This document shows positions 3,034 to 7,737 of a DNA stretch of 7,843 nucleotides, in pieces (positions within the stretch are counted from its first letter, which is position 1; each line of letters starts with the position of its first letter). The translations under genes and the position numbers were made by a program. The notes below the pieces were generated by a model that saw only the letters and a list, made by a program, of their open reading frames with translations, did no database searches and had not been told where the DNA came from. The DNA comes from an uncultured Bacillota bacterium. Lineage in GTDB: Bacteria; Bacillota; Clostridia; Peptostreptococcales; Anaerovoracaceae. The stretch is taken from assembly GCA_902465215.1 (NCBI GenBank), contig CABQMM010000054.1, positions 1 through 7,843 on the forward strand, in the 5' to 3' direction.

Positions 3034-3062
3034 TTGATTTGAGAGAGCGGGCGCGGTATAAT
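3034..3062 (+). promoter_or_regulatory. Sigma-A promoter for an antisense RNA, with GAGCGGG inverted repeat
   Basis: TTGATT (3034-3039), 17-bp spacer, TATAAT (3057-3062). GAGCGGG (3045-3051) lies in the spacer and its complement CCCGCTC at 3072-3078, so an inverted repeat brackets the -10 box. The -35 overlaps the minus-strand ribosome site of the gene starting at 3020. Confidence 0.65.
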
Positions 3063-3068
3063 CTACTT

Positions 3069-3139
3069 GCACCCGCTCCGGGTGTTCTTCAAACTCTTTG
3101 CCTGTTGCTTTGGTCGGCTGTCAGGCAAGGGGCTTTTTT
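3069..3139 (+). ncRNA. Candidate ~70-nt antisense RNA
   Basis: Runs from the promoter at 3034-3062 to the terminator at 3096-3139, opposite to the leftward operon and filling the gap between two of its genes (stop at 3139, start at 3020). A small hairpin (CACCC...GGGTG) opens the RNA. No rightward frame with a ribosome site is present in it. It would pair with the operon's intercistronic mRNA. Existence is inferred from promoter and terminator only. Confidence 0.45.
3096..3139 (+). terminator. Rho-independent terminator of the 3069 RNA
   Basis: Stem CTTTGCCTG (3096-3104) with CAGGCAAGG (3122-3130), nine pairs including one T-G, 17-nt loop, then GGC and six T (3134-3139). Confidence 0.65.
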
Positions 3140-3462: not shown

Positions 3463-3594
3463 CTTGTGTACCTCCTTTGTTTTTTCAGGGAGCGGGCGGC
3501 GTCTGGAATGTAGCAGCTACTTGGCCATTGTCCTGTCACCAGTATGTCTGCCGCCCTGTTTGACTTGTTCAAGGTCTCTCCCTTAACCGTCTAT
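3463..3594 (-). promoter_or_regulatory. Structured leader of the leftward operon
   Basis: Non-coding stretch between the inferred transcription start (about 3588) and ATG 3462. It contains the palindrome GTAGC-A-GCTAC (3510-3520), the word CAGGGAGCGGGCG (3486-3498, identical to 4173-4185), and a GGGCGGC/GCCGCCC inverted repeat (from 3494; 3550-3557 region). Function unknown; a folded 5' leader is likely. Confidence 0.35.
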
Positions 3595-3699: not shown

Positions 3700-3769
3700 A
3701 TAGCTACAATGGGAGGGGAGAAGCGTCCGTAACAAATCCCCCCTAATGAATCAAGCAGGAGGGTGCGTA

Positions 3770-4144
3770 ATGGCAGAAGAAAGAAAGCCCGCGTCTAAAG
3801 CGCAGCAGAAAGCGCAGAACAAGTGGATTGCAAGTGCGTATGATCGTATTAACCTGACCGTAGAAAAAGGCCGCAAGGACGTTATAAAGGCATTTGCCGA
3901 TGCGCAAGGGGAAAGCGTCAACGGCTTCATAAACCGCGCTGTAAACGCCGCCATGAGCGGAGAACAGGCAGAAGGAGATCACGCTCCCACTCCCCTCGTA
4001 ACGCCGGAACGCTTTGCAAAGATCAGCGAGCATATAAAGCATACCGGCGAGACGCCGGAGGAGTTTGTAGGCCGTGCCATAGAGGACACCATAGCGCGTG
4101 ACGCGGTATCTCTTAGAATTGGGATCAATCCGGCGGGAAAATAA
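3770..4144 (+). CDS. Ribbon-helix-helix (Arc/MetJ-type) DNA-binding protein
   Basis: 124 residues. ATG 3770 is chosen because AGGAGGG (about 3757-3763) lies six bases upstream; ATG 3746 lacks a site. A basic start (MAEERKPASKAQQKAQNKWI) leads into the ribbon-helix-helix: strand RINLTVEKG at about residues 26-34, helix A KDVIKAFADAQG, turn ES, helix B VNGFINRAVNAAM. This is the Arc-like pattern 'r..l.v..g..e.ik..A...g.s.n.fi..Av...m'. Residues about 80-110 (PERFAKISEHIKHTGETPEE, FVGRAIEDTI) look like a second helix pair of the same type without its strand. The palindrome cluster over its promoter suggests autoregulation and control of the divergent operon. Such proteins also act in relaxosomes and partition. 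Confidence 0.8.
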   Translation: MAEERKPASKAQQKAQNKWIASAYDRINLTVEKGRKDVIKAFADAQGESVNGFINRAVNAAMSGEQAEGDHAPTPLVTPERFAKISEHIKHTGETPEEFVGRAIEDTIARDAVSLRIGINPAGK

Positions 4145-4183
4145 AAAACACCCGCTCTCATGCTTGACATAGCAGGGAGCGGG
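4142..4183 (-). terminator. Minus-strand terminator overlapping the antisense promoter
   Basis: Read on the minus strand, CCCGCTC (complement of 4177-4183) pairs with GAGCGGG (complement of 4151-4157) and is followed by GTGTTTTTTAT. It would end leftward transcription coming from the peptide gene at 4348. The same inverted repeat flanks the -35 box of the opposing promoter. Confidence 0.6.
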
Positions 4184-4192
4184 CGATATAAT
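4164..4192 (+). promoter_or_regulatory. Perfect consensus sigma-A promoter of an antisense RNA
   Basis: TTGACA (4164-4169), exactly 17 bp, TATAAT (4187-4192). The spacer carries CAGGGAGCGGGCG. No rightward gene with a ribosome site follows, only a roughly 100-nt stretch ending in a strong terminator. Confidence 0.85.
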
Positions 4193-4198
4193 GAGCAT

Positions 4199-4301
4199 AT
4201 AAAAGGGCGCTGCGACAAGCGGTTAGCCTCTTTCAGATTCGGAACATTTGAGTAAGCTCAAAAGAAACCGTCACTTGCCAGAGTGGCGGTTTCTGCTTTT
4301 T
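4199..4301 (+). ncRNA. Candidate ~100-nt antisense RNA (type I antitoxin-like)
   Basis: Starts about seven bases after the consensus promoter and ends in the T tract 4297-4301. It is fully complementary to the 3' part of the minus-strand transcript that encodes the 25-residue peptide, including its last ten codons and stop. A perfect promoter, a short RNA with a strong terminator, and antisense overlap with a tiny gene are the hallmarks of type I antitoxin RNAs. Not matched to a named RNA family. Confidence 0.6.
4263..4301 (+). terminator. Strong rho-independent terminator
   Basis: A 12-bp stem (4263-4274 with 4283-4294; AAACCGTCAC with GTGGCGGTTT, one T-G pair) with an 8-nt loop, followed shortly by TTTTT (4297-4301). 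It lies over the end of the minus-strand peptide frame. Confidence 0.8.
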
Positions 4302-4348
4302 ACGATGATCGTCACGGTGAACCGTCCGATATGTAACGTAATACGCAT
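4271..4348 (-). CDS. 25-residue peptide, candidate type I toxin
   Basis: ATG 4348 follows a very strong ribosome site (AAAGGGGGTGG, about 4353-4363). The peptide begins MRITLHIGRFTVTIIVK and ends in a basic tail, SRNRHSGK; stop TGA at 4271-4273. It is short, with a central beta/hydrophobic run (FTVTIIV) and net positive charge. The ribosome site is partly shut in a hairpin, CCACCC...GGGTGG, separated by GAAAGG, a device seen in type I toxin mRNAs. The mRNA would run on to the terminator at 4183-4142, across the whole antisense RNA from 4199. Toxicity is inference: the peptide lacks the long transmembrane helix of Fst or TxpA, so a regulatory peptide or simply a structured RNA remain possible. 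Confidence 0.5.
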   Translation of the reverse strand: MRITLHIGRFTVTIIVKSRNRHSGK

Positions 4349-4597
4349 AGCTCCACCCCCTTTCGGGTGGTGTAAGCCAACCGCCTGCCGTTTTGTGCAG
4401 CGCCCTGGTACTCCCGTAGAAGCACCAACGACACAATAACACGGATTACGGCAGACTGCAAGGATTTTCGCATCTTATTACGATAAGCGTGGCGTAAAAG
4501 CCCTACGGAGCGCCGATGCAAGCAGATAGTTGCAAATGGTTGCATTAACTTTCTCCAAGGTTTTTTCGGGAAAAAGGAAACCACAAACCGAGCAAAA
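4349..4597. other. Leader of the peptide gene and non-coding element end
   Basis: No gene is supported. 4357-4371 holds the hairpin that covers the peptide's ribosome site. Open frames here (minus 4233-4442, minus 4312-4584) have no ribosome sites and read through the structured leader. No clear minus-strand promoter was found. GTTGCA occurs twice ten bases apart near 4528-4543. Confidence 0.4.
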
Positions 4598-4708: not shown

Positions 4709-4738
4709 AAAAACGTGAAAAAAACGTACATCGGGTAA

Positions 4739-4761
4739 TTCGAATCCCTCCTTCTCCGCCA
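4739..4761 (+). other. Attachment site: 3' end of a tRNA-Ser gene (attR-type)
   Basis: The 23 bases contain TTCGAAT (T loop), CCCTC (T-stem 3' side), CTTCTCC (acceptor 3' side), discriminator G and CCA. The implied acceptor 5' strand GGAGAAG plus discriminator G fit tRNA-Ser. The bases just upstream (GGTAA) do not pair with the T-stem and no tRNA body precedes, so only the 3' end is present. Elements that integrate in tRNA 3' ends restore the full gene at one end and leave this copy at the other. Confidence 0.8.
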
Positions 4762-6626: not shown

Positions 6627-7737
6627 ATGGAGCAAAAAGATAAGATCATCATCCGCGGTCTGCGGCAGAGCAATCTCAAAAACGTCTCGCTGGACATCCC
6701 GAAAGGGAAAATTGTGGTATTTACCGGCGTTTCCGGGGCGGGAAAATCCAGCATCGTGTTCGACACGATTGCCGCAGAGAGCCAGCGGCAGATGAACGAA
6801 ACCTATACTGCCTTCATCCGCGGCAGGCTTCCCAAGTACGAAAAGCCGAAGGCCGAACGGATCGAAAATCTCTCCCCCTCCGTGATCGTCGATCAGTCGC
6901 GTCTCGGCGGCAACGCCCGCTCGACCGTCGGCACGATCAGCGATATGTACGCCGCGCTGCGGCTTTTGTATTTGCGCATCGGCGAGCCGTATGTTGGAAC
7001 GGCTTCCTGTTTTTCGTTCAACGATCCGAACGGCATGTGTCCCGAATGCTCCGGCATCGGCAAGGTGATGACGGTCGATGTGGAAGGGCGCATCGACCCG
7101 GAAAAGACATGGAACGAGGGCATGGCGGATCTCCCCGCCTTTCACGTGGGCAACTGGTACTGGAAGCAGTACGCCGCCTCCGGCCTCTTTCCGCTCGACA
7201 AGAAGTGGAAGGATTTTTCCGCGCAGGAGCGAAACCGCGTGCTCTACGGCGCGGATACGGGGGACGGAAAGCGGCTGAATAAACATGTGGACGGCATTTC
7301 GCACTATCTTCACCGGATGCTCATAAACCGCGACACCTCCGCGATGAAGGAAGCAGCGCATGATCGACATCGGGCTGCCGTACCTTTCCATGGACCGCGA
7401 ATCGTCCACACTCTCCGGCGGCGAGCGGCAGCGCGTGAAGCTCGCCAAGCATCTGGATAAGCGCGGCAGCATTTATGTGCTCAATGAGCCGACGACCGGA
7501 CTGCACGCCTCGGATATCCGGAAGATCATGGCGCTGCTCGACTCTCTTGTCGAGCACGGGAACACCGTGATCGTCATCAAGCACAATCTTGATGTAATGA
7601 AGCAGGCGGACTATATCATCGACGTCGGTCCCGACGGCGGTACTGCGGGCGGGGAGATCGTCTTTACCGGCACGCCGCAGGAGATGGCGGAGCATGCGCA
7701 TACCATCACCGCAGAGTATCTCCGCAAATCCCTATAA
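6627..7737 (+). pseudogene. Small UvrA paralogue (excinuclease-like ABC ATPase), internally deleted
   Basis: ATG 6627 follows AAGGAGG. The first frame gives the N-terminal ABC half: Walker A GVSGAGKSS at about residues 34-42, FDTIAAESQRQMNETYTAFI, VDQSRLGGNARSTVGTISD, zinc-type CPECSGIGKV, and FHVGNWYWKQY. Around 7345-7360 the text jumps to another frame and continues with the C-terminal ABC half: MIDIGLPYLSMDRESSTLSG, signature LSGGERQR, Walker B, and the usual end (GTPQEMAEHAHT...YLRKSL). The family is about 750 residues; here about 370 codons remain, so the first signature and Walker B and the second Walker A are gone. Walker B reads VLNEPTTGLH (family VLDEPT) and the later segment IVIKHNLD (family IVIEHNLD): Asp to Asn and Glu to Lys, both single G-to-A changes. 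Inactive by any reading. Paralogues of this type are linked to damage or drug tolerance. Confidence 0.85.

Follow-up and report, generated by a model that had tools for sequence, protein, structure and literature searches.

Type I toxin-antitoxin systems of several kinds resemble the locus described here. In the TxpA/RatA and BsrG/SR4 systems of Bacillus, the toxin mRNA is overlapped at its 3′ end by the antisense RNA, and we know of no end pairing or inverted modules in either of them. Both family names appear in the excerpts of PMC6563280, which describe type I modules of Clostridioides difficile, a member of the class Clostridia, with convergent overlapping genes, copies in prophages, and toxins of 34-59 residues that have a transmembrane domain and a charged C-terminus. 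The Fst/Ldr par loci, in the excerpts of PMC7472228, have convergent promoters, a hairpin common to both RNAs, 5′ repeats, a ribosome site held in a stem-loop and a 5′ upstream helix, and Fst relatives are said there to occur in Clostridia. The aapA/IsoA loci of Helicobacter and its relatives are described in the excerpted text of PMC6733600 as multicopy chromosomal loci that encode a peptide of about 30 residues and a cis antisense RNA, and in which the 5′ and 3′ ends of the mRNA pair and transient hairpins cover the ribosome site. AapA1 has an alpha-helical segment by NMR, and the membrane type I toxins tabulated in the excerpts of the same source all show a helical transmembrane domain (PMC8309996).

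The closest mechanism to that of the present locus is AapA-like end pairing combined with a 3′-overlapping antisense RNA, rather than that of Fst. The aapA/IsoA features listed above recur here, and the long-distance 5′-3′ pairing of the mRNA was found by both covariation and prediction. The family described here belongs to a different phylum, its antisense RNA sits inside the 3′ half of the mRNA and holds the complement of the 3′ pairing arm, and its peptide is predicted to be beta rather than alpha-helical. The family peptides may bear some likeness to the AapA peptide. The features given for Fst/Ldr par are likewise present, but the repeats here are inverted instead of direct (DRa/DRb), the two RNAs share their starting sequence and are not complementary there, and the mRNA would continue past the shared hairpin; the PxxxG helical toxin motif of Fst/Ldr was absent by eye from 35 family peptides. 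As in the Bacillus systems, the antisense RNA overlaps the mRNA 3′ end and five units carry holin-like peptides of the MVTYS type, whereas the main peptide type had no likeness to theirs in a Pfam scan. The C. difficile modules share the class, the convergent overlapping genes and the copies in prophages, and are set apart by the description of their toxins given above. The word stems Ruminococc and Oscillo do not occur in the excerpted text of that review of Clostridia, which treats the C. difficile systems (PMC6563280). No publication on such a locus in Oscillospirales was among those listed in a search that lay mostly outside the subscription literature, and one may be in print.

Layout of the locus

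The window is the whole stretch of DNA that was analysed, 7,843 nucleotides in length. The features of the unit that it carries are as follows.

4143-4185, minus strand: predicted toxin mRNA terminator, hairpin 4149-4185 plus T6 (A6 on the plus strand, 4143-4148)
4164-4192, plus strand: antisense (antitoxin) promoter TTGACA-17-TATAAT, 12/12 match
4199-4301, plus strand: predicted antisense RNA of about 100 nt, both ends placed from promoter and terminator
4204-4229, plus strand: antisense 5′ module, with arm 1 at 4204-4213 and arm 2 at 4219-4229
4263-4294, plus strand: antisense terminator hairpin of 14 pairs with a T-rich tail
4271-4348, minus strand: ATG frame of 25 codons for the 25-residue peptide MRITLHIGRFTVTIIVKSRNRHSGK, the candidate toxin
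4353-4370, minus strand: Shine-Dalgarno-holding hairpin of the predicted fold
4374-4406, minus strand: mRNA 5′ module, with arm 1 at 4397-4406 and a box at 4374-4384; predicted partner, the complement of 4204-4229
4407-4426, minus strand: 5′ hairpin GGTGCTTC-TACG-GGAGTACC at the presumed mRNA start, -9.3 kcal/mol
4433-4462, minus strand: weak candidate mRNA promoter CTTGCA-18-TATTGT, best match 7/12, at chance level

The main elements named by an earlier sequence-only reading were all recovered: a perfect TTGACA-17-TATAAT promoter on the plus strand, a 25-codon frame on the minus strand, a ribosome site inside a hairpin (by predicted fold), an antisense RNA of about 100 nt followed by a terminator that overlaps the last codons of the frame, and, on the minus strand, a terminator hairpin formed around the antisense -35 box, an arrangement that recurs in 15 of 87 units. 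That reading had limited the unit to 4142-4371; the true extent adds the mRNA 5′ module and the 5′ hairpin, neither of which it named. The antisense promoter is the sole 12/12 match within the window, where 13 promoter-like sites were found compared to 6.1 expected from shuffles. Of the six ribosome-site bases checked, four were nearly always paired in the prediction and two were unpaired with a probability of 0.42. The DNA of hairpin 4263-4294 doubles as the last peptide codons and the stop, and the minus-direction hairpin 4149-4185 encloses the antisense -35 box.

The predicted antisense RNA has a fold energy of -39 kcal/mol, and the complement of its 5′ module is the 3′ arm of the mRNA end pairing. 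A repeat search gave the arms as 4204-4222 and 4388-4406 (19 nt, 79% complementary); the antisense RNA and the peptide mRNA would therefore start nearly alike. The two predicted RNAs overlap by 104 nt, and their complex was calculated at -284 kcal/mol compared to -127 and -39 kcal/mol for the RNAs themselves. Pairing of the antisense 5′ box with the mRNA ribosome site was also considered and was dropped after a look by eye.

Spread of the family

The unit at 4142-4462 is, by sequence comparison, one member of a dispersed family found in Oscillospirales and on phage contigs, and the comparison took in over 80 relatives, some clostridial and some on phage contigs. The antisense 5′ module pattern was present in 76 stretches of genome contigs, of which six were judged to be chance matches; the remainder came mainly from Oscillospirales or Clostridia (Gemmiger, Faecalibacterium, Oscillibacter, Flavonifractor, Anaerotruncus, Dysosmobacter and others). 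Three unannotated phage records also matched. Similar DNA occurred at eight places in the 860-kb replicon of Vescimonas fastidiosa (a plasmid record), where the gene table, which is incomplete, shows no annotated feature beneath the match; three of these copies are flanked by nadE and a LysR regulator gene, at the one place where neighbouring genes were read.

The distribution is patchy. In a sample of the order, 10 of 394 genomes matched the module pattern with at most one mismatch, and all except one (L236) held a real unit on reading, which leaves nine. The exact pattern was found in one of 391 genomes in the class sample and one of 398 in the phylum sample, and in each sample that genome was the centre genome. 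These prevalence figures are lower bounds, since divergent modules exist.

The fetched loci gave 125 distinct module matches, from which 11 without a promoter-like site were removed (nine chance matches, and L108 and L230, which both look like solitary units). The 114 units that remained all have the antisense 5′ module; L228 among them is probably a chance match. The mRNA module was also present in 91 of them and missing in 23; among the 91, L102:1378 takes the module of its neighbour, and L119 and L146 are misaligned. An early degenerate peptide pattern was set aside; of the 100 stretches that matched it, two (L003 and L037) were real by reading.

Selection on the peptide

The peptide was present in 84 of the 91 two-module units by script and in 85 by reading; the seven that the script scored as lacking it comprise five holin-like units, L177, which has another peptide, and L175, in which reading recovered it. 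In codons 2-17 the pN/pS ratio was 0.09 in the subfamily of the window (15 distinct coding sequences) and 0.34 in the MPI subfamily (22 distinct coding sequences), the two subfamilies, picked by start motif and length, making up 37 of the 81 distinct coding sequences. The remaining same-strand frames gave 1.4-3.5. One reverse frame gave 0.19 and 0.41, which we attribute to the match between its third positions and those of the true frame. For the tail codons, which lie within the terminator hairpin, the ratio rose to 0.58 and 0.68.

These findings show, at the level of sequence, a conserved peptide gene under purifying selection. The core is thus conserved at the protein level and the NRHxxx tail chiefly as a structure of the RNA or DNA. 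Loss of the frame with retention of the RNA, the outcome that the sequence-only reading had set against itself, was looked for across the relatives and did not occur; single copies with a lost frame do exist, such as L249, in which the module is kept and the frame stops early.

Predicted structure of the peptide

The peptide had been described as less hydrophobic than known toxins, and this was borne out by a best 15-residue Kyte-Doolittle mean of 1.26 in relatives with the same core compared to 2.2-2.5 in the holin-like peptides. The family peptides carry a mean net charge of +4.9 and are amphipathic in beta form. Over the first 18 residues, which alternate as a beta strand does, the beta moment in 68 peptides was 0.62 compared to 0.50 in shuffled sequences, and the alpha moment 0.40 compared to 0.48; the four other peptides, which differ in this respect, gave a beta moment of 0.39 (0.45 shuffled) and an alpha moment of 0.48 (0.43 shuffled). 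Peptide alignments comprised 35 (A2) and 28 (A3) of the 68 peptides. For a 30-residue relative, with the frame taken from an upstream in-frame GTG and 28 sequences as input, AlphaFold2 gave a two-strand beta hairpin (strands 6-12 and 15-21; mean pLDDT 75.5, pTM 0.31). No alpha-helical transmembrane segment was found by the moments of the 68 peptides or in the AlphaFold2 model of the one relative. The predictions suggest that the peptide takes a beta structure resembling a hairpin.

Rfam, Pfam and NCBIfam gave no accepted match to the locus or to its peptide, and NCBIfam and PADLOC gave none for the family peptides. The Rfam matches at gathering score were tRNAs alone, on the loci of 12 relatives. 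Spy779816 in Rfam scored 25.9 bits on the minus strand of the window against a cut-off of 67 and was rejected as a likeness between stems. A sequence profile search of the PDB returned one match, to an unrelated chain (E = 1.3), among sequences that may or may not include AapA1, and Foldseek against the PDB returned no fold relative (best E 8.5). No membership of the family in any described family was shown by these comparisons.

Pairing of the mRNA ends

When the arms of 76 distinct sets were compared over 18 positions, 1259 of 1368 positions were identical. Among the differing positions, 80 pair as G.U on the mRNA strand compared to nine that do so only on the plus strand, and 20 are transversions. 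Broken pairs numbered 29, compared to a mean of 66 when partners were re-dealt (minimum 57 in 2000). Removal of three doubtful rows gave 1227 identical positions, 80 mRNA G.U, seven plus-strand G.U and 18 transversions in 74 sets. The end pairing thus covaries in these sequences, and does so specifically on the mRNA strand.

An alignment of 41 mRNAs, hand-picked from 80 listed, gave the same picture. Cells of the stated structure were paired in 94.8% of cases compared to 90.6% in shuffles, double-change cells numbered 91 compared to 24.7, and 15 of 38 pairs had changes on both sides. Four of five covariation measures were reached by none of 500 shuffles; the fifth, further pair types, stood at 37 compared to 33.1 and was reached by six of 500. 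Because these sequences are related to one another and themselves served to draw the structure, the P values overstate the signal. When the structure was slid by 1-3 columns, pairing fell to only 35-50%. Double changes occurred in 7 of 10 pairs of end helix 1 and in 2 of 7 pairs of the Shine-Dalgarno hairpin, where 88% of cells were paired. The outermost two pairs were often broken (17 and 12 of 41). The covariation across relatives that the sequence-only reading had proposed as a check is thus present in the mRNA structure, along with the kept peptide frame.

A second bait, the terminator hairpin alone, gave ten units that have a family-like peptide and lack the known module. In nine of the ten, a script found another arm common to both 5′ ends (for example GCAAGGGGC, GGAGCGCCG and GGGTGCCGC), each match being reached by 1-7 of 100 shuffles. 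In the tenth, L263, CCCGGTCAT was found by reading at both 5′ ends, and L269, missed by the script, was read as likewise sharing an arm between its 5′ ends, GGGTGCCGCC with GGGTGCTGCC. L260 has antisense-like features and no peptide.

By folding, for which 83 of the 91 units were used, all but one unit (82 of 83) had an end pairing of 15 or more expected pairs. The ribosome site was unpaired at 0.15 with the 3′ arm and 0.14 without it and was thus equally hidden either way; folding alone therefore does not show that breakage of the end pairing frees translation.

Terminators and promoters

The end pairing requires an mRNA that passes through the antisense gene. A scan of the 150 nt past the antisense 5′ end gave a minus-direction terminator in 31 of 87 units compared to 3.5 expected from mononucleotide shuffles (the other four of the 91 being too close to the locus edge), and the opposite-direction control gave 7 of 87. 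The same scan gave no terminator at the expected mRNA end in 56 of 87. By our own count, 15 of the 31 terminator hairpins, that of the window included, contain the complement of the -35 box; a few of these are near-identical copies, and otherwise the same layout is made with differing sequences.

The antisense terminator hairpin had 98.4% of cells paired over 11 pairs in the 41 mRNAs, with three pairs changed on both sides. By reading, in 40 of 41 rows a G.U pair of the antisense RNA in the shared hairpin at the frame end corresponds to a mismatched A.C in the mRNA, as would suit a hairpin that terminates mainly the antisense RNA. The idea that terminator loops confer pair specificity within a genome found no support, the loops differing no more within genomes than by chance (10 of 59 pairs identical compared to 6.4 expected, with genomes grouped by hand).

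The antisense promoter scored a mean of 11.6/12 and was perfect in 67 of 91 units, a set pre-filtered for a promoter-like site. An mRNA promoter of at least 9/12 within 70 nt was present in 50 of 91 units compared to about 5 expected from shuffles, lying 6-13 nt from the module in 24 units and 22-35 nt in another 24; in the latter there is mostly a hairpin between promoter and module, like that of the window. The window copy has the 5′ hairpin and an mRNA promoter of only 7/12. With its mRNA promoter at chance level, this copy may be weakly expressed or decayed.

Variants of the unit

In five units (two at L141, and L166, L169 and L232), all from the two genomes G006 and G007, the encoded peptide is of the MVTYS type, hydrophobic over one stretch and basic in its tail; these units keep the modules, the ribosome-site hairpin and the terminator at the stop codon. 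We call them holin-like on the basis of a sub-threshold match (E = 0.098) of one of three such peptides to Pfam PF16935 (Hol_Tox/TxpA), which had no match among six main-type peptides. L177 carries yet another peptide on this chassis. The units L261, L268, L270, L248 and L269 have the same layout with divergent new peptides, such as MKITLVIEFLEYVLRIAFRKK, MEITLVIKFLEYNIRIVLKKSKNRHSDQ and MSLHVTFKWKGFIFIFRVTRDNRHPAR; the family is therefore wider than the baits used.

About 16 of the 114 units are, by reading, solitary antisense genes without the peptide half. Some resemble deletion remnants, with tail codons or a truncated frame (L106, L138 and L178). Six (L124, L148, L150, L174, L178 and L182) abut the 3′ end of one conserved gene whose product has the tail GCQHC.LFRSCPYRH, and the solitary RNA may have a role of its own there. 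L152 and L176 abut a small gene starting MPSKLPHYALRIPSEIMDKLKYIADRSGRSANKEIEQL, which by eye looks like a DNA-binding protein of the antitoxin type.

Surroundings of the unit in the window

Directly upstream, a small protein is encoded at 3746-4144 (plus strand), with ribbon-helix-helix matches only below threshold. At 4731-4761 lies the 3′ part of a tRNA, GGTAATTCGAATCCC...CTCCGCCA, whose 5′ half is missing; ARAGORN finds no tRNA there, and an inverted repeat with a T-run comes next. This is probably the attachment-site end of an integrated element, with the unit about 0.3 kb inside. At 3034-3130 (plus strand) there is a promoter-like TTGATT-17-TATAAT with GAGCGGGC in its spacer, CCCGCTC next to it and a hairpin ending in a T-run farther on; the element may have a further small RNA gene here. 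A repeat search showed that CAGGGAGCGGGCG recurs at 3486-3498. Two overlapping frames at 6627-7460 and 7360-7737 (plus strand) make up one ATPase-like coding sequence, presumably UvrA/ABC-ATPase-like, and the split suggests a frameshift.

Discussion

The sequence-only reading had taken the locus for a type I toxin-antitoxin locus, or a relative of one, that serves element maintenance and encodes a peptide of a possibly new type. A locus like those of type I, with a new kind of peptide, is well supported by comparison, through the coding selection, the covarying mRNA, the strong antisense promoter and the holin-like peptides on the same chassis. A small protein-coding gene is conserved as a peptide, as its pN/pS indicates, and the sequence holds a complementary antisense gene with its own promoter and terminator. 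Element maintenance is so far without support, and three copies lie between nadE and the LysR gene in the 860-kb Vescimonas replicon. Since both the peptide and the end pairing have been kept by evolution, the family is likely a new one of RNA-restrained self-poisoning peptides. We therefore hold it probable, from sequence comparison, that this is a type I toxin-antitoxin system of a new family, locked end to end in the manner of AapA, with a peptide predicted to be a cationic amphipathic beta hairpin. Counting against this reading are the low hydrophobicity of the peptide, the chance-level mRNA promoter of the window copy, a ribosome site predicted to be as hidden without the 3′ arm as with it, the 56 of 87 units that gave no terminator at the expected mRNA end, and the origin of the holin-like units from two genomes.

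In the proposed mechanism, the mRNA would start near 4426, cross the whole antisense gene and stop at the hairpin around the antisense -35 box, with the antisense RNA of about 100 nt nested in its 3′ half. The mRNA 5′ module at 4374-4406 would pair with the last module and close the message into a stable loop, and the local hairpin would hide the ribosome site, so that the full-length mRNA would be inert, as in AapA. If AapA is a guide, the message would become active once its 3′ end is removed. The antisense RNA would pair with the 3′ UTR and the last part of the frame and lead to mRNA decay; when the antisense RNA is exhausted, synthesis of the peptide would follow, with harm to the cell, probably at the membrane.

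The peptide is a candidate toxin, and the same antisense control could act on a peptide that is not toxic to its own cell but serves in signalling, in tuning of the membrane or as a secreted antagonist. Its moderate hydrophobicity, cationic nature (mean +4.9) and amphipathic beta form would suit such a product, many secreted antagonists being likewise cationic and amphipathic. However, five units place a holin-like peptide on the same chassis, and the double locking and the solitary antisense copies better fit a harmful product, which makes this alternative unlikely. Neighbouring genes were read at one place, and an exporter or processing gene may lie beside other copies. Less likely again, and in our judgement very improbable, is that the small RNA alone is functional and acts in trans, with the peptide-bearing form as its regulated sponge: in about 16 of 114 units the antisense gene lacks its peptide half, and several of these genes occupy one position, after a particular conserved gene, but the coding selection on the peptide is clear and some solitary copies (L106, L138 and L178) look like deletion remnants. 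The poorest account is a MITE-like mobile DNA repeat with inverted ends transcribed by chance and the peptide and RNAs as by-products, which matches the dispersed multicopy unit, inverted ends, tandem copies and solitary halves but is contradicted by promoters that lie outside the inverted ends and are kept, by arm differences that preserve pairing on one strand (80 compared to 9), by the peptide pN/pS of 0.09 and by arms of different sequence that still pair.

The toxin-antitoxin reading can be drawn more widely, to include helical holin-like toxins slotted into the chassis and solitary antitoxin genes shed as antidotes, an extension that we regard as plausible while stopping just short of favouring it. 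Oscillospirales are common gut bacteria. A non-helical candidate toxin in the family would broaden what a type I toxin can be, and the conserved end-to-end lock would offer a second lineage in which to test the inert-message model. In addition, the family shows how a single hairpin can supply both a terminator and the promoter that opposes it, an arrangement that recurs with different sequences.
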